Source: Planctomycetaceae bacterium (GTDB lineage Bacteria; Planctomycetota; Planctomycetia; Pirellulales; Thermoguttaceae). From it: a stretch of 12,422 nucleotides of DNA. Under the pieces are notes generated by a model that had not been told where the DNA came from, ran no database searches, and saw only the letters and a list, made by a program, of their open reading frames with translations. Positions within the stretch are counted from its first letter, which is position 1, and each line of letters opens with the position of its first letter. The translations under genes were made by a program, and so were the position numbers. This document shows, piece by piece, positions 1,430 to 12,422 of the stretch. The stretch covers positions 1 to 12,422 of the forward strand of contig JAITAZ010000272.1 of NCBI GenBank assembly GCA_031283825.1, read 5' to 3'.

Positions 1430-2734
1430 ATGTTTGCTAATCGCCGTAATTTTTTATACAAAATTTTATCAATCGCCGCTATTATAGTTTTTTTTACAAA
1501 TATAAATATTTGTCCGGCTGATACTCCAGATAACTCAGATTTCAGTCAAGAACAATACTCGCAAAATCAAAAAAATTATAGACAAAATAATTATCCCAAT
1601 AATTCAAATTTGTCAAACGCCGCCTTCGGAAAAGAAATAACGCCAGATATCGCCGCAAAAGAACAACACAACCGCGAAAATTCAATCCGCGAACAACAAA
1701 ATCAAGAACCGCCTCTTCACGAACCTTTGCCGCTTCCGCCTAAACCATCGTCAAACTACAAAAAAAATAATCAGCTAAACGCCTTAAAAAGCGGACTTAC
1801 CAACTCGCCAACTCCTCAAACGAATAATCAGCCGATAAATTCTCACGCAACAAATTCTCCTTCAACGAATTCCTCGCGGTATTCTGCAATGTCGGCGGAT
1901 TATAACAGAAGTTCCGCACCGCAAAGAGCAATTAAATTAGCCGCAGCAGACTCGCAAGAAAATCAAATCAATAATAGAGATATTAACTCTAATCCGAATC
2001 AAAATAATCAATCAAATAATTCGACAAATAATACGAACTCGTCAGAGAAGTCGTCTAATAATGACGACGATAGAATTATCGTTACAGAAAATCAAAAAAC
2101 TCAAAACGAAAACGGGATTCTCGATCAAAAAATTGGTCTTGGCGACTCTAACGACGACGGAAATAAATTAAAGAAACCGCGAATGCCGGAGTTTTTCGGA
2201 CCTGTTGTTTCAGTTGTAAGTAGTTTATTTATCGTGATTTCAATTTTTTTGATTCTGACTCTTTTGTTTAGAAAAATTTCGCCTAACGCAACTCAGACCC
2301 TGCCGAAAGAAGTATTTGAAAATCTTGGTAAAACATTTTTGTCGCAAAAATTGCAAGTGTATTTATTGCGTCTTGGCAACAGATTAATTTTGGTTTCAGC
2401 AACAGGAGACGCTTTAACGCCGATTACAGAAATCACCGACCCCGACGAAGTCGTTACCGTTCTCGGAATGTGCCGGACGCTCAATAACAACGCAATAAAT
2501 AAATTTCACAAAAATTTATCGGCACAATTAAACTCAAACAACTTTAACGAATCAGAAAAAAATTACACGGCAAAAAATAACCGAAACGATTACTTCGGAA
2601 TAAATCAAAACGAACAAGAACAAAGATATAAATCCAGAACATCGCATGGATTAGATATCTACAGCGAACCAGACAACAAAAGTCTTGCATCGATTCTCGC
2701 TTCGGGAATGGAACGTAAAGGAGTCAAATCTTGA
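1430..2734 (+). CDS. fliO: Flagellar biosynthetic protein FliO with a long Asn/Gln-rich N-terminal region
   Basis: FliO is a small membrane protein that helps assemble the FliP ring of the flagellar type III export gate. The recognisable part is C-terminal: a transmembrane helix at about 257-281 (GPVVSVVSSLFIVISIFLIL), followed by the cytosolic FliO domain at about 293-345 (LQVYLLRLGNRLILVSATGD, then ITEITDPDEV). The protein is 434 residues, against roughly 100-150 for enterobacterial FliO. The excess is an N-terminal signal-like hydrophobic segment (about 10-30) plus a ~220-residue low-complexity stretch rich in Asn, Gln, Ser and Pro, and a charged Asn-rich tail of ~80 residues. If the first segment is cleaved, the low-complexity region is periplasmic. 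The ATG at 1430 has no Shine-Dalgarno sequence. The stop overlaps the fliP start by 4 nt. The call rests on the C-terminal domain and position before fliP. Confidence 0.87.
   Translation: MFANRRNFLYKILSIAAIIVFFTNINICPADTPDNSDFSQEQYSQNQKNYRQNNYPNNSNLSNAAFGKEITPDIAAKEQHNRENSIREQQNQEPPLHEPLPLPPKPSSNYKKNNQLNALKSGLTNSPTPQTNNQPINSHATNSPSTNSSRYSAMSADYNRSSAPQRAIKLAAADSQENQINNRDINSNPNQNNQSNNSTNNTNSSEKSSNNDDDRIIVTENQKTQNENGILDQKIGLGDSNDDGNKLKKPRMPEFFGPVVSVVSSLFIVISIFLILTLLFRKISPNATQTLPKEVFENLGKTFLSQKLQVYLLRLGNRLILVSATGDALTPITEITDPDEVVTVLGMCRTLNNNAINKFHKNLSAQLNSNNFNESEKNYTAKNNRNDYFGINQNEQEQRYKSRTSHGLDIYSEPDNKSLASILASGMERKGVKS
2717..2723 (+). promoter_or_regulatory. Shine-Dalgarno sequence for fliP (AAAGGAG)
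   Basis: AAAGGAG ends 7 nt before the TTG at 2731 and 13 nt before the ATG at 2737. The spacing favours the TTG, which also overlaps the fliO stop codon and implies translational coupling. Confidence 0.7.
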
Positions 2735-3960
2735 ATATGATCTCAATGAACAATTCGTATTTTAAAATTCGGCGGCGCGATAGCGTAAACGTTTGTCGTC
2801 AGACTGACAATCGGAAAACGTTATCCGAAATTACAGACGAAAAAAATTCAAACGTAAATTCAATCGCGCGTCAATTTGAATTTTTGTACGAAAATAAATT
2901 TGTCCGAGTAATAATTGCGTCGTTAATGTTTTTAATTTGCGCAACGATAATTATTCCGTTTGTTGACGGGAATTTGGTTTTTGCGCAAGTAATAATTAAC
3001 AATTACAAACCGAACAAGCCGCAAGGTCGTTATGCGGATCGGCGCGAGCCTCATTTCATGCAATTTGAGCCTTCGATTTACGACTCTAACAACGCCTCCG
3101 TAAACCGCGCCGGACGCGAGCCGTTTGAGTCTCAAGCTCCGCAACTCGACCCGCCAATCGACGAGTTACGTTACGAAGACGGCTCGTTAGCGTTGCCAGT
3201 GCCGAAAGAAATCTTGCCCGGTGTCGATTTTTTACGAACTCCCGGCGGATTAGTTTCGACGATACAAATCATGGTTATTTTAACCGTGATAACGTTAGCG
3301 CCGTCAATAATGATAATGACAACTTCGTTTGTACGCATTATGACCGTGTTAGCCGTTTTACGTCAAGCGATAGGAACGAATCAACTTCCGCCGAGTCAGG
3401 TAATTACGGCGTTGTCGTTATTCTTGACGCTTTTAATTATGACGCCGGTGTGGTCTGAAATTTATTCGGAATCGGTGTTGCCGTTTAGCGAAAGAAGAAT
3501 CGGTCTCGAAACTGCGTACAATAAAGCAGAAAGACCTGTAAGAAAATTTATGGCGGAACAAATAATGAGATGTCATAACACTGACGACGTAAAAGTTTTC
3601 TTGAGATATATCGACAATTACGCCGCGCCGGAAGAAATGACTTGGAAAGACATCCCTTGGCGTGCGCTTTTGCCGGCGTTTATGTTGAGCGAATTGAAAA
3701 CGGCGTTTATGATCGGATTTCAAATTTACTTGCCGTTTCTCGTCTTGGACATGGTAATTGCGAGCGTGATGGTTTCGATGGGTATGATGATGTTGCCGCC
3801 GGTGATTATTTCGTTGCCGTTTAAGTTAATGCTTTTTGTGTTAATGGACGGATGGCAACTAGTTGTGGTAATGTTGTTAGAGAGTTTTGAGCATTACGTG
3901 CCGGAAACAACGAGAGAATCAGTTTTATTTCAAGCAATGCAATTAAGCGGATTCTGTTGA
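2731..3960 (+). CDS. fliP: Flagellar biosynthetic protein FliP (export gate) with N-terminal extension
   Basis: FliP is the main pore-forming subunit of the flagellar type III export gate in the inner membrane. The conserved core occupies about residues 165-409. It carries the FliP signatures PAFMLSELKTAFMIGF (315-330; the usual charged/polar residue before Ile-Gly is Met) and D-MVIASVMVSMGM-MMLPP (340-357). Core hydrophobic segments are at about 175-195, 198-212, 222-240, 325-355 and 360-385. The total of 409 residues is much longer than the usual ~245. The extension has a 57-residue polar N-terminus, a signal-peptide-like helix (58-86, ending VFAQ) and a Pro/Arg-rich linker (87-160). Many FliP proteins have a cleaved signal peptide, so the odd part is the long polar lead and the linker. 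TTG at 2731 is chosen for its Shine-Dalgarno spacing and overlap with fliO. Confidence 0.95.
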   Translation: MNMISMNNSYFKIRRRDSVNVCRQTDNRKTLSEITDEKNSNVNSIARQFEFLYENKFVRVIIASLMFLICATIIIPFVDGNLVFAQVIINNYKPNKPQGRYADRREPHFMQFEPSIYDSNNASVNRAGREPFESQAPQLDPPIDELRYEDGSLALPVPKEILPGVDFLRTPGGLVSTIQIMVILTVITLAPSIMIMTTSFVRIMTVLAVLRQAIGTNQLPPSQVITALSLFLTLLIMTPVWSEIYSESVLPFSERRIGLETAYNKAERPVRKFMAEQIMRCHNTDDVKVFLRYIDNYAAPEEMTWKDIPWRALLPAFMLSELKTAFMIGFQIYLPFLVLDMVIASVMVSMGMMMLPPVIISLPFKLMLFVLMDGWQLVVVMLLESFEHYVPETTRESVLFQAMQLSGFC

Positions 3961-4040
3961 CGAATTATCGTTATGAATTATCGTTACGAAAATGTTCATT
4001 CGATTAAATTTTGAAAAAAATTTATACGTTTAATAAAAAT

Positions 4041-4310
4041 ATGGATGCACAGGTTGCGGTTGATTTATGCCGTAATGCGACTTGGATCGCGTTATTGATA
4101 GCGTCTCCGGTTTTGATTGCCGGAACGGCGGTAGGGTTGTTGATTGGACTATTGCAAGCGTTGACGCAAATACAAGAACAGACAATTGCGATTGTGTTAA
4201 AAATAATTGTGATGATTCTAGTGCTTGCGTTTCTCATGCCATGGATGACAATCAAAATGATGGATTACACAATCGAATTGTTGCAAGAAATTCCTCAGAG
4301 AATGTTGTGA
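4041..4310 (+). CDS. fliQ: Flagellar biosynthetic protein FliQ (export gate)
   Basis: FliQ is the two-helix export-gate subunit that packs around FliP/FliR. The ATG at 4041 gives 89 residues, the usual family length, and starts MDAQVAVDLCRNATWIALLI, which lines up with FliQ N-termini. Two membrane helices follow, about 14-40 and 53-75. The conserved loop GLLQALTQIQEQTIAIVLKI between and into the second helix is diagnostic. A longer form from TTG at 4011 (99 residues) is possible, but neither start has a Shine-Dalgarno sequence. The gene follows fliP by 80 nt. A near-direct repeat GAATTATCGTTA(T/C) at 3962-3987 lies in that gap, of no known role. Confidence 0.94.
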   Translation: MDAQVAVDLCRNATWIALLIASPVLIAGTAVGLLIGLLQALTQIQEQTIAIVLKIIVMILVLAFLMPWMTIKMMDYTIELLQEIPQRML

Positions 4311-4325
4311 TTTAGTAACTATTTA

Positions 4326-4467
4326 GTAACCGTTTTTTAAGATGATTTCGCGGACGAAGAGGACAAAGAGGACGTCGTTGTTTGAAATCGTAGATTAACG
4401 GCTCCAAAGAAGTTGTTCTTGAGTTTTTTCAACAGATATTAAATCTAAACGTCTCTTTTTGTCTTTT
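4326..4467. repeat. Decayed copy of the GGGGAC hairpin element with a truncated element end
   Basis: The gap between fliQ and fliR begins with GTAACCGTTTTTTAA (4326-4340), a version of the GTAACCGTTCACGG termini found later, with CACGG lost. It is followed by GAGGACAAAGAGGACGTC, TTGTTTGAAATC and GATTAACGGCTC, which align in order with the left half of the hairpins at 7398 and 11641. AAACGTCTCTTTTTGTCTTT (4447-4466) corresponds to the right arm. The GGGGAC units have become GAGGAC or similar, so the arms still pair only imperfectly. This is an old, eroded copy inside a flagellar operon. Confidence 0.55.
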
Positions 4468-4551
4468 AAAAAATTTGTCTGTTTGCGTGAAGAAAATATT
4501 TTTTTGACAAGACTGATAACAAATCTAATTAATTTTTTTCGGCTACTATAG

Positions 4552-4577
4552 CTACTATAACTAAACTAAAAAAAGGA
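4552..4577 (+). promoter_or_regulatory. fliR leader: shared CTACTATAACTAAA motif plus Shine-Dalgarno AAAAGGA
   Basis: CTACTATAACTAAA at 4552-4565 is identical to 5814-5827 upstream of the symporter, and similar to the leader of pheT. AAAAGGA at 4571-4577 lies 7 nt before the TTG at 4585 and decides that start. Confidence 0.55.
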
Positions 4578-4584
4578 TATTTGA

Positions 4585-5412
4585 TTGGATTGGTACAATT
4601 ACATTGACACGTCTCGCGTTTTTGTGTTTGCGTTGGTTTTGACGCGAGTGAGTGGAATAGTGATAATGTCGCCGGTTTTTGGCGGTTCAGACATTCCGAT
4701 GCAAGTTCGGGCGCTTTTTGCGTTTGCGCTTACGCTTTTGATAATGCCGTCTCAATGGTTGGTAGAGATTGAGGAGCCGGGAACGTTGTCGGAGTTTGCG
4801 ATTTTGATTGCGGGCGAGCTTATAATTGGTCTTTTTATTGGTCTTGGGGTGAATATATTTTTTTCTGGGATTTCGCTTGCGGGCGAGGTGATTGGTCAGC
4901 TGGGCGGATTATCGGCGGCGGCGATTTTCGATCCGATTTCGGGCGATCAATCTCCGTTATTATCGCGGATGCTGACTTATCTGGCGATAACTGTTTTCGC
5001 GGCAATAGGAGGATTAAGCACGACAATTGCCGCTCTATTAGACACGTTCCAAACATTGCCTTTAACAAAATGGACGACAAATTCAATTGGTGAAAATTCG
5101 CATTTCGAGTTAATGTCGTGTGCGTTGATTCATATTTTGAGTATTAGTTTTAATTTGTCGTTGAGAGTAGCCGCGCCGGTGATGATTTCGGTGTTAGTCG
5201 CGTTATTGGTGATGGGGCTTTTGAGTAAAACGCTGCCGCAGCTTAATCTGATGTCGATAGGATTTGGGATTAACAGTATGATTATGTTGTTGGTTTTTAG
5301 TTTATCGATTAGTTCGGGCATTTGGTGTTTTCAAGACAGAGTAAGCGACGTATTAGAATTAATTTTTCACGCCCTCCACGCAAACATAGACGTTACAGGA
5401 ATACAAAAATAA
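4585..5412 (+). CDS. fliR: Flagellar biosynthetic protein FliR (export gate)
   Basis: FliR is the single-copy subunit that closes the FliP5FliQ4FliR1 export gate in the inner membrane. The 275 residues match the family (about 260) with no extension. Family features are RVSGIVIMSPVFGGSDIP (21-38), the long central segment GEVIGQLGGLSAAAIFDPIS (100-119), LRVAAPVMISVLVALLVMGL (193-212) and SKTLPQLNLMSIGFGI (214-229). There are five to six hydrophobic helices. The TTG start is supported by AAAAGGA 7 nt upstream. flhB, which often follows fliR, is not here; a repeat element and a symporter gene follow instead. Codon use is rich in G and T at third positions, unlike fliO. Confidence 0.96.
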   Translation: MDWYNYIDTSRVFVFALVLTRVSGIVIMSPVFGGSDIPMQVRALFAFALTLLIMPSQWLVEIEEPGTLSEFAILIAGELIIGLFIGLGVNIFFSGISLAGEVIGQLGGLSAAAIFDPISGDQSPLLSRMLTYLAITVFAAIGGLSTTIAALLDTFQTLPLTKWTTNSIGENSHFELMSCALIHILSISFNLSLRVAAPVMISVLVALLVMGLLSKTLPQLNLMSIGFGINSMIMLLVFSLSISSGIWCFQDRVSDVLELIFHALHANIDVTGIQK

Positions 5413-5457: not shown

Positions 5458-5492
5458 ATTGCCTTTGTAAAGTTTTATTTGTTTGCTATATT

Positions 5493-5728
5493 GTAACCGT
5501 TCACGGTTTTTTAAATTCGGATTTGAATTACTAAACCCAATGTAGAGACGCAATGCTTTGCGTCTCAATCGGTGAGCTTTTGATCGAACAATAGAGACGC
5601 AATGCTTTGCGTCTCTATCGGTGATTTTTTGATCGAACAATGAGACGCAAGGCATTGCGTCTCTACATTTGTTAATTTGTAACTATTCACGTTTTAATTT
5701 TGTCGATAAAATTTCCGTGAACGGTTAC
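5493..5728. mobile_element. MITE-like element 1 (236 bp) with 14-bp inverted termini and 8-bp target duplication
   Basis: The left end is GTAACCGTTCACGG (5493-5506) and the right end its exact reverse complement (5715-5728). The perfect direct repeat GCTATATT lies immediately outside both ends (5485-5492 and 5729-5736), as expected of a target-site duplication. The interior has a left flank (TTTTTTAAATTCGGATTTG), three tandem GAGACGC palindromes, and a right flank with an internal variant end GTAACTATTCACG (5679-5691). There is no transposase, so it must be mobilised in trans. Ends beginning GTAA with 8-bp duplications are typical of the IS66 family; assigning it to that family is inference. 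Element 3 after pheT and element 4 after lepB are homologous. Confidence 0.88.
5545..5663. repeat. Three tandem GAGACGCAA/TTGCGTCTC palindromes
   Basis: Palindromes at 5545-5566, 5592-5617 and 5642-5663 each have 9-bp or longer stems around a 4-nt loop (TGCT, TGCT, GGCA). They are separated by nearly identical ~25-nt spacers of the form ATCGGTGA..TTTTGATCGAAC, so the whole unit repeats every 48-49 bp. Elements 3 and 4 carry two units each. In RNA these would form strong stem-loops downstream of fliR. Confidence 0.85.
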
Positions 5729-5740
5729 GCTATATTTATA

Positions 5741-7392: not shown

Positions 7393-7397
7393 AATAA

Positions 7398-7612
7398 TTT
7401 TTTTGGGGGACGTTGGGGACAAAGGGGACGTTGGGGACACTGGGGACGTTTTTGTTTGAAATCTGGGGTTGATGACTCAGGAGATAATGCTGAAAAAAAT
7501 CTCTCTTTTAAAAAGGCTATTGTCTTCTGTTGAGTCATTAATCATGGTTTTTAAATTAGAGTGTCCCCAGTGTCCCCAACGTCCCCTTTGTCCCCAATGT
7601 CCCCCAAAAAAA
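7398..7612. repeat. GGGGAC hairpin element, copy 1 (50-nt arms)
   Basis: The left arm (7398-7447) is seven Ts, then five GGGGAC-type units spaced by 3 nt (a 9-nt period). The right arm (7563-7612) is its reverse complement with one difference, which would be a G-U pair in RNA. The 115-nt loop has its own stem, 7469-7479 with 7531-7541 (11 bp, one wobble), and an internal sequence (TCTCTCTTTTAAAAAGGC) shared with the copy at 11641-11857. It fills the gap between the symporter and pheT. As RNA it would be an extremely stable structure, able to end or stall transcription. The G-rich strand also has four G4 tracts with 5-nt spacing, suitable for a G-quadruplex. Confidence 0.85.
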
Positions 7613-7658
7613 TAATATGGTTTGTAAAAATACCATGAACGGTTACACAACTACTACT

Positions 7659-7694
7659 ACAACTAATACAACTAATACAACTAATACAACTAAT
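7659..7694 (+). repeat. Four tandem copies of the 9-mer ACAACTAAT in the pheT leader
   Basis: Four perfect ACAACTAAT units are followed by a partial ACAACAACT, ending 10 nt before the pheT ATG. The stretch before it, GTTACACAACTACTACTAC, resembles the symporter leader (GTTACACAACTACTATAAC). The tract has almost no G and cannot fold, so it would give an unstructured leader. There is no Shine-Dalgarno sequence between it and the start. Confidence 0.85.
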
Positions 7695-7713
7695 ACAACA
7701 ACTTTAAAATAAA

Positions 7714-10164: not shown

Positions 10165-10461
10165 ATAACCGTTCACGGGTTTTTAAAATTCGGATTTGAA
10201 TTACTAACCCCAATGTAGAGACGCAATGCATTGCGTCTCAATCGGTGATCTTTTGATCGAACAATAGAGACGCAAGTCATTGCGTCTTTACATTTGTTAA
10301 TTTGTAACTATTCACGTTTTAATTTTTCGATAAAAAAATATACGACTCGTACTATGAATTTCGGCAATGTAAATGCGTAAAAGATTTCTTTCCGAAGGTA
10401 AGCAGGCGTCGCTAACCGAAAATTCAAGTGTGAACAGTTTAAAAATTTCGTGAGCGGTTAC
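10165..10461. mobile_element. MITE-like element 3 (about 297 bp), abutting the pheT stop codon
   Basis: The left end ATAACCGTTCACGG (10165-10178) starts at the base after the pheT TAG. The right end is CGTGAGCGGTTAC (10449-10461). The left flank, two GAGACGC palindromes (10218-10239, a perfect 22-bp palindrome, and 10267-10288) and the internal GTAACTATTCACG (10304-10316) match element 1. A ~100-bp D repeat (10338-10440) lies between that internal end and the right terminus. No 8-bp direct repeat is seen at the edges, and both ends deviate from the 14-mer, so it is probably older than elements 1 and 4. It fills the whole gap between pheT and lepB. Confidence 0.75.
10338..10440. repeat. D repeat, copy 1 (uninterrupted)
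   Basis: This ~100-bp unit runs from ATATACGACTCGTACTATG through TCCGAAGGTAAGCAGGCGTC to ACCGAAAATTCAAGTGTG and AACAGTTT. Related copies lie at 12042-12144 and 12318-12413. It contains an imperfect outer inverted repeat (GAATTTCGG with CCGAAAATTC). Its first 27 bases match the site into which element 4 inserted, with 3 mismatches, so it serves as the intact reference. Confidence 0.75.
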
Positions 10462-11374: not shown

Positions 11375-11474
11375 TTAGTCGAGTACAAACGAAAAGAACA
11401 AACTCAAGCGAGATTTGTTTATCATTGAGCGAGTCTAATCGGCTTATATTTATCGTTACAAAAATTCAGATATA
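11375..11474. other. Gap after lepB: weak stem-loops only
   Basis: No gene is seen. GATTAG near 11373 can pair with CTAATC near 11436, and AACAAA with TTTGTT inside it, but the stems are only 6 bp and no U-tract follows. Bases 11470-11474 begin the D-repeat copy that element 4 interrupts. Confidence 0.3.
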
Positions 11475-11547
11475 CAACTTGTGTAACCGTTCACGGAAAT
11501 TTTTATCGAAAAATTAAAGCGTGAATAGTTACAAATTAACAAATGTA

Positions 11548-11618
11548 GAGACGCAATGCTTTGCGTCTCAATCGGTGATCTTTTGATCGAACAATAGAGA
11601 CGCAAGGCATTGCGTCTC
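11548..11618. repeat. Two tandem GAGACGC palindromes in element 4
   Basis: Palindromes at 11548-11569 and 11597-11618 are joined by ATCGGTGATC-TTTTGATCGA-ACAAT, 49 bp apart. The spacer reads in the same direction as in elements 1 and 3, but the flanking sequence on the left (an ATTTGTTAATTTGTAACTA homologue) is reversed. Confidence 0.85.
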
Positions 11619-11640
11619 TACTGTTGGTTTAACGATTACA

Positions 11641-11857
11641 TTTTTTTAGGGGACATTGGGGACAAAAGGGACGTTGGGGACGTTGGGGACGTTCTTGTTT
11701 ACAATCTGGGGTTAATGGCTCGGAGGGATAAAACTGAAAAAAAATCTCTCTTTTAAAAAGGCAGTTGTTTTCTGTTGAGTCGTTAATCATGGTTTTTAAA
11801 TTAGCGTGTCCCCTTTGTCCCCAACGTCCCCTTTGTCCCCAATGTCCCCCCAAAAAA
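11641..11857. repeat. GGGGAC hairpin element, copy 2
   Basis: The arms at 11641-11690 and 11808-11857 are again built of GGGGAC units at a 9-nt period. One left-arm unit is AGGGAC, and the innermost spacers differ (GTT against TTT on the right). The loop keeps the shared TCTCTCTTTTAAAAAGGC and the inner stem; here TTAATGGCTC faces GAGTCGTTAA, so pairing is kept through two G-U pairs. It is followed, like copy 1, by AATAATATGGTTT. Confidence 0.85.
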
Positions 11858-11879
11858 TAATATGGTTTTTAAAAATACC

Positions 11880-11930
11880 GTAACCGTTCATGATTTTTAA
11901 ATTCCGAATTTTAAAACCGTGAACGGTTAC
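11880..11930. repeat. 51-bp minimal unit with both MITE termini
   Basis: GTAACCGTTCATG (11880-11892) and CCGTGAACGGTTAC (11917-11930) enclose only 24 nt (ATTTTTAAATTCCGAATTTT and 4 more). The interior matches the left flank of elements 1 and 3. There is no direct repeat at its edges. It may be an internal deletion product or a shuffled end. Confidence 0.65.
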
Positions 11931-11970
11931 AATTAAATTAAATAATTTTATTCGTTGTAAATCTTTTTTA

Positions 11971-12021
11971 TTATCCGTGAAAATCCGTATTCACTAAAAA
12001 AATCCGTGTATATCTGTGTTT
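11971..12021. repeat. 'atccgtgaaaatccgt' type degenerate repeat
   Basis: ATCCGTGAAAATCCGT, AATCCGTG and ATCTGTG occur in succession. The pattern resembles simple dispersed intergenic repeats seen in many bacteria. It lies inside element 4 near its right end. Confidence 0.45.
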
Positions 12022-12041
12022 AAAAATTCGAGAGCGGTTAC

Positions 12042-12144
12042 CAACTTGTACGATGAATTTCGGCGTGGCAATGTAAAGGCGTCAAAGCTTGTTTTCCGAA
12101 AGTAAGCAGACGTCGATAGCCGAAAATTAAAGCGTGAAAAGTTT
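12042..12144. repeat. D repeat, copy 2 (split by element 4)
   Basis: It begins in the second target duplication (CAACTTGT) and continues ACGATGAATTTCGGCG, TTCCGAAAGTAAGCAGACG, GCCGAAAATTAAAGCGTG and AAAAGTTT. Its missing first bases lie at 11470-11482 on the other side of element 4. Confidence 0.75.
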
Positions 12145-12241
12145 AAGTAATTCCGAAAAAAAAATTAAAATTCCTGCGTCAACATGCCGACAATTCGCTG
12201 TGCTGACGCTTGCGGATATTTGACAGTTACGTGATATTGAC

Positions 12242-12422
12242 TCATTTTAGTTGTCGGTATATATTTTTTTTAGTTTTAACAGGCGGGAAATTTTGAAGAC
12301 CTAACATATCAGGTTGCAATTGAGTTTTGGCGATACGGGCTACATTAAAAAGCTGATTTTTTTGAAGGTCATTAGGCGGCTCTAACTGAAAATTCAATCG
12401 CGAGCAGATTAAATAGGTTTTT
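12242..12422 (-). CDS. Possible C-terminal part of an unknown protein, off the right edge
   Basis: A minus-strand frame is open from the window edge for 59 codons and stops with TGA at 12242-12244. The translated end reads VARIAKTQLQPDMLGLQ and later TKKNIYRQLK. I do not recognise it. A second tiny frame (26 codons, 12165-12245, starting MSQYHVTVKYPQ) overlaps its stop as ATGA, which would fit coupled genes. Against a real gene, most of its first half coincides with D repeat copy 3, which is non-coding elsewhere, and an open run of this length is not rare in six frames. Confidence 0.22.
   Translation of the reverse strand, partial: KTYLICSRLNFQLEPPNDLQKNQLFNVARIAKTQLQPDMLGLQNFPPVKTKKNIYRQLK
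12318..12413. repeat. D repeat, copy 3 (diverged)
   Basis: The stretch GAAGGTCATTAGGCGGCTCT through CTGAAAATTCAATCGCGAG to CAGATTAAA matches copy 1 at about three quarters of 50 aligned positions. The 5' part (TTGAGTTTTGGCG against ATGAATTTCGGCG) is weaker. The 170 nt between copies 2 and 3 contain only short inverted repeats (GCGTCA/TGACGC, CCGACAA/TTGTCGG). Confidence 0.55.

Follow-up and report, generated by a model that had tools for sequence, protein, structure and literature searches.

A probable composite IS66-type MITE nested within an interspersed repeat of a Planctomycetaceae genome

We identified a nested insertion in a 12,422-nt stretch of Planctomycetaceae DNA (the window), in which an IS66-type MITE, here called element 4, interrupts a copy of D, an interspersed repeat of about 105 bp. 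The insertion is confirmed; it is an ordinary type of event, and the genome is unusually rich in such gene-less jumping elements. Very probably, element 4 is a non-autonomous composite MITE that was moved in trans by a transposase of the IS66 family, of the single-ORF, ISBst12-like kind. The window is the whole of contig C179, from a 73%-complete assembly whose 689 contigs total 3.46 Mb, and its relevant features are collected in Table 1.

Element 4 is bounded by the inverted-repeat ends GTAACCGTTCACGG and TCGAGAGCGGTTAC, the left one perfect and the right one deviating from the perfect form at three positions. The 8-bp duplication CAACTTGT, which is exact, directly adjoins the first of these ends, which starts at 11483, and the second, which runs to 12041; the identical flanking repeats described in a sequence-only reading of the window are therefore borne out. 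At the local base composition, an 8/8 match at one given end pair has a chance of about 2e-5. The stretch 11483-12041 contains no open reading frame of at least 80 aa, and no Rfam families were found in the whole window. The consensus of D begins TATACAACTCGTACTATGAATTTCGG, and the duplicated 8 bp are its positions 5-12. Joined together, the flanks of element 4 rebuild the left end of D, with 24 of 26 positions identical to the family consensus and with three mismatches in 27 against the copy at 10338-10364, a count that the sequence-only reading had already given and that we reproduced. Nonetheless, the 8-bp repeats could in principle be the product of recombination between two copies of D, or belong to two D pieces that lie separately beside an unrelated spacer, with no insertion at all. 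D copies are very common and at times adjacent, and the left D piece measures just 12 bp, with TATA (a word present at 0.3% of positions) as the only D sequence beyond the duplication. We find this origin scarcely credible, given that the repeats abut both element ends exactly, that the overlap between the D pieces is exactly 8 bp, and that the 8-bp pattern recurs at other MITE copies away from D.

The D family itself shows what the site looks like when empty. A single D query gave 39 matches in the genome of origin, and among the 38 copies aligned beside the window copy, 28 retain a left end that can be recognised and carry at most one additional letter where element 4 is inserted in the window copy; the other 10, with a left end that is worn or missing, are uninformative on this point. 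The insertion point is crossed uninterrupted, in one piece of 94-125 bp, by 32 of the 62 distinct D hits of the genome, and 6 of 16 D hits from contigs of the genus also cross it in one piece. Given that D copies run uninterrupted through this point, element 4 is not part of D; D copies with such a spacer built in are what the sequence-only reading had named as speaking against its own interpretation. The alignment of genomic D repeats that it had proposed thus places the insertion in an existing D, with empty paralogous sites both in the window and elsewhere in the genome. D matches were found in 13 of the 20 other genomes of the genus; first-look candidates numbered 872 in G017, 1,187 in G019 and 444 in G020, of which 40 each were scored. 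A target duplication of D's own was looked for and could not be defined. MITEs beside other D pieces gave two possible cases (L172 and L045), neither with both D halves, and these were not counted. A third, partial D copy sits at the window's right edge (12353-12411), and a D-like copy at L177 is nearly palindromic, as though two right halves of D had been joined.

Table 1. Coordinates of element 4, its parts, and the associated D repeats and MITEs in the window.
Feature	Position	Strand	Remarks
Target-site duplication, copy 1, CAACTTGT	11475..11482		
Element 4, composite IS66-type MITE, 559 bp	11483..12041		no ORF of at least 80 aa
Left terminal inverted repeat, GTAACCGTTCACGG	11483..11496	+	perfect
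Right terminal inverted repeat	12028..12041	-	3 mismatches
Target-site duplication, copy 2, CAACTTGT	12042..12049		
Interrupted D, left end	11471..11482	+	D consensus; TATA plus first copy of the 8-bp duplication
Interrupted D, remainder	12042..12146	+	
Intact D repeat	10338..10445	+	paralogous empty site, itself within a MITE
Left unit, about 50 bp	11483..11532		itself bounded by two converging ends
GAGACGC hairpin module	11540..11626		
GGGGAC long-hairpin module	11640..11879		repeated in genome
Mini-MITE, 51 bp	11880..11930		junction with GGGGAC module recurs at C658 and C262
Right module	11931..12041		repeated in genome
Related MITE, 236 bp	5493..5728		exact duplication GCTATATT at 5485-5492 and 5729-5736
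MITE with same kind of ends, split by D at 10338	10165..10461		no 8-bp duplication around it

The ends of element 4 belong to a motif that is extremely frequent in this genome. With up to two mismatches, the motif occurs 1,293 times in the assembly (635 + 658), against 10 occurrences (3 + 7) of a reversed control, a density of about one IS66-type end per 2.7 kb. With up to one mismatch it occurs 942 times in this genome (G000), 915 times in G017 and 0-170 times in the other 19 genomes of the genus. In related genomes outside the genus the same motif bounds elements of 1,487 bp (G056), 1,494 bp (G035) and 1,558 bp (G059), each with a single open frame of 477-501 aa that fills most of the element. 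These three full-length elements (L059, L060 and L061, out of 15 regions) match DDE_Tnp_IS66 with E-values of 4e-35, 6e-27 and 4e-25, and DUF6444 as well; zf-IS66 exceeds its cut-off in one of the three, and no exact 8-bp duplication was found around any of them. All three carry a single transposase ORF and are free of the accessory genes of other IS66 elements, as in the ISBst12 group, so that we refer to them as ISBst12-like, a name given by resemblance and not from a tree. Within the genus, both ends surround IS66 remnants at L122 (977 bp) and L125 (727 bp), which look like internal deletion derivatives of IS66 elements and showed no exact 8-bp duplication around them. PF03050 was matched in 11 of the 21 genomes of the genus. 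Among 23 hits extending into the C-terminal part of the domain, six are followed at 123-205 bp by an end in the correct orientation, no oppositely oriented end occurs at that distance, and one hit has an end 300-1,500 bp off; the 17 hits that have no such end at 123-205 bp indicate that other IS66 types are also present.

No PF03050 match was obtained in the assembly of origin or in G017, and a protein search of both with a transposase from the genus, run without a positive control, was empty. G000 and G017, the genomes richest in IS66-type ends, are thus among those of the genus with no match to an IS66 transposase. The missing gene weighs little, considering that the assembly is 73% complete and that assemblies of this sort readily lose IS genes present in multiple copies; the gene may have been lost from the lineage, or it may be missing from the assembly. 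Duplications of 8 bp are not confined to IS66 and are made by other IS families too. Together with the lack of a detected IS66 gene in the genome, this leaves room for a transposase of another family that makes 8-bp duplications and uses these ends, the link to IS66 in relatives being incidental. We consider such an enzyme very unlikely, because these ends enclose IS66 genes in three related genomes, and 6 of the 23 IS66 hits of the genus have such an end beside them in the right orientation. Element 4 and its kin share terminal inverted repeats with autonomous IS66 elements, are short, transposase-less and present in many copies, and have the 8-bp target-site duplication at element 4 and at 5493-5728; an autonomous IS66 source was not found in the same genome, and we treat the presence of such a source as a trait of active MITEs and not as one that defines membership of the IS66-family MITEs. 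An IS66-family enzyme probably acted in this lineage. The transposase would have used ends of the GTAACCGTTCACGG type and inserted them at a staggered cut of 8 bp across D positions 5-12, leaving CAACTTGT on both sides of the insert. Counting against this reading are the undetected transposase gene, the lack of exact duplications around the full-length IS66 elements and the deletion derivatives, the 17 IS66 hits without these ends, the single exact duplication in a fixed-step sample of end pairs (below) and the imperfect right end of element 4.

Duplications are also found at other copies with these ends. In a chosen sample consisting of the window and 20 contigs of the same genome picked for several exact ends (67 end pairs, 28-900 bp apart), 10 pairs show an exact duplication of 8 bp at offset 0, and eight other offsets yielded none; among the ten are several words made of A and T only, each of which is weak evidence by itself. 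A fixed-step sample of 40 contigs from the genome gave one exact duplication among 24 pairs, with three more that are one base off; in shuffled pairings of the same sample the corresponding values are 0.042 for exact duplications and 0.61 when up to one mismatch is allowed. Exact duplications were also present at two of five pairs on five contigs of G017. The smallest elements with exact duplications are free-standing and measure 52 and 53 bp.

Another question regards the composite interior of element 4. The left unit, both hairpin modules, the mini-MITE and the right module all recur elsewhere in the genome, and C658 shares, at 90%, an interior stretch of about 400 bp that covers the hairpin, the GGGGAC module and the mini-MITE. 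Given this shared stretch, and that the junction between the GGGGAC module and the mini-MITE is found at both C658 and C262, part of the interior was pre-assembled. The sequence-only reading had the composite jump as a unit, for which we found no support, since the duplication dates the outer ends only and a second copy of the 559-bp element was not found in the 73%-complete assembly. Alternatively, a smaller IS66-type MITE might have entered D first, and the GGGGAC module, the mini-MITE and the right module might have been added later by nested insertion or recombination; the transposase would be the same, and the unit that jumped would have differed from the present 559 bp. We give this course of events a chance slightly short of even. 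It agrees with a duplication that gives a date for the outer ends alone, with the occurrence of the whole element at no other locus, and with the existence of free-standing elements of 52-53 bp that have exact duplications of their own. The junction of the right module may moreover be local, since a MITE end directly precedes this module at none of the nine loci read out of its 48 matches. Against such later additions stand the part of the interior that was assembled elsewhere (the stretch at C658 and the junction at C262) and the inner units of element 4, none of which has an 8-bp duplication of its own. Around the composite at C262 no duplication was found, and C658 begins at a contig edge. 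On arrival, the element may have held less of its interior than it does today. The GGGGAC-rich long hairpin, of about 240 bp, lies at both 7397-7644 and 11640-11879 and is a high-copy module in itself; a MITE end directly beside it is seen in many of the 14 distinct loci listed.

The order of events differs between the two D copies of the window. The claim that D spread first and the element came later holds for the copy at 11470/12050 and fails as a general order, as the intact D at 10338 splits a MITE. This MITE (10165-10461) is related to the one at 5493-5728, with two common stretches that are 93% and 97% identical, and TTTTTCGATAAAAATTTCCGTGAACGGTTAC, which is unbroken at the left end of element 4 (as the reverse complement), is broken in it by D within the A run. 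Therefore D also moved after such MITEs had spread, each family inserted into the other, and no general order applies. The split MITE has no matching 8-bp flanks (GAACATAG and ACCATATT), so its own insertion lacks the proof that a duplication would give. In a relative with a PheT 79% identical, a D copy (L112:2634-2736) lies 63 bp downstream of pheT, with no IS66-type ends. Were this the D found at 10338, the MITE at that site would be the younger of the two, which would speak against mutual nesting; the flanks of the two D copies differ and the L112 contig holds three D pieces in 3.65 kb, so the D at L112 may well be independent. A more speculative scenario, which we hold to be rather unlikely, is that two unrelated transposase-less families, the IS66-type MITE and D, went through their expansions at the same time and inserted into one another, while MITE ends and captured hairpin modules gave rise to composite 'MITEs of MITEs' that moved as units, in a lineage that now has no transposase.

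Comparable elements have been described. Duplications of 8 bp are published for the IS66 elements ISPpa5a and ISPpa7 (PMC3281130) and for ISDge4 of the ISBst12 group, with the end GTAACTGCTCAGCA (PMC12898284). ISDge4 shares with our elements the ends that begin with GTAAC and the 8-bp duplication, and with the full-length relatives a single transposase ORF of similar size, coding for 449 aa in ISDge4 and 477-501 aa here; element 4 differs from it in having no transposase, in being composite and in the details of its end sequences (PMC12898284). MITECca01 of Cardinium, likewise a MITE of IS origin, outnumbers every other mobile element in its genome and interrupts other mobile elements, whereas it derives from IS982, has 169 copies and has an intact parental IS in the same genome (PMC9769881). 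MITEPsy1 of Pseudomonas syringae is also small and transposase-less, with two copies within other transposons, but it makes a 4-nt duplication, probably derives from ISPsy2, has few copies and has been shown experimentally to move (PMC3189936). ERIC-type MITEs are short intergenic inverted-repeat elements that also reach high copy numbers, up to hundreds (711 copies are reported in Photorhabdus luminescens; PMC10969869), yet their sequence is unrelated, and for element 4 the parent family is identified as IS66. MITEs within other mobile elements are thus already described (PMC9769881; PMC3189936), and the unusual points here are the copy number and the mutual nesting. Our literature search, with partial coverage that does not prove absence, found no IS66-type MITE of Planctomycetes. 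Through a clean footprint and full-length relatives, a very abundant repeat found in uncultured Planctomycetes is linked to the IS66 family, and the relative ages of two repeats can be read from their mutual nesting without strain data. With about one IS66-type end per 2.7 kb, these genomes are suited to studies of MITE multiplication, of composite formation and of the breakage of metagenomic assemblies.

Regarding the genomic setting, the PheT encoded in the window shares 76-79% identity with the PheT proteins of three MAGs that carry the label Planctomycetaceae and whose isolate codes we take to stand for termite guts. The signal-peptidase gene that neighbours the insertion, sought as a landmark for an empty version of this site in relatives, has just 39-41% matches, in 6 of the 20 other genomes of the genus, and no signal peptidase was found near pheT in five relatives, within about 1.1, 0.14, 5, 5 and 5 kb downstream. 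A short tandem array of ACAACTAAT-like 9-mers (7650-7699) lies just upstream of pheT. By Pfam, the flagellar export genes fliO, fliP, Bac_export_3 (fliQ) and Bac_export_1 (fliR) stand in a row at 1430-5412, with a degenerate copy of the GGGGAC-type repeat between the last two (4352-4404). Finally, a long inverted repeat at 263-416, with 46-nt arms that are 89% complementary, contains words CGCGACCTTTCGGCGAAAGGTCGC.
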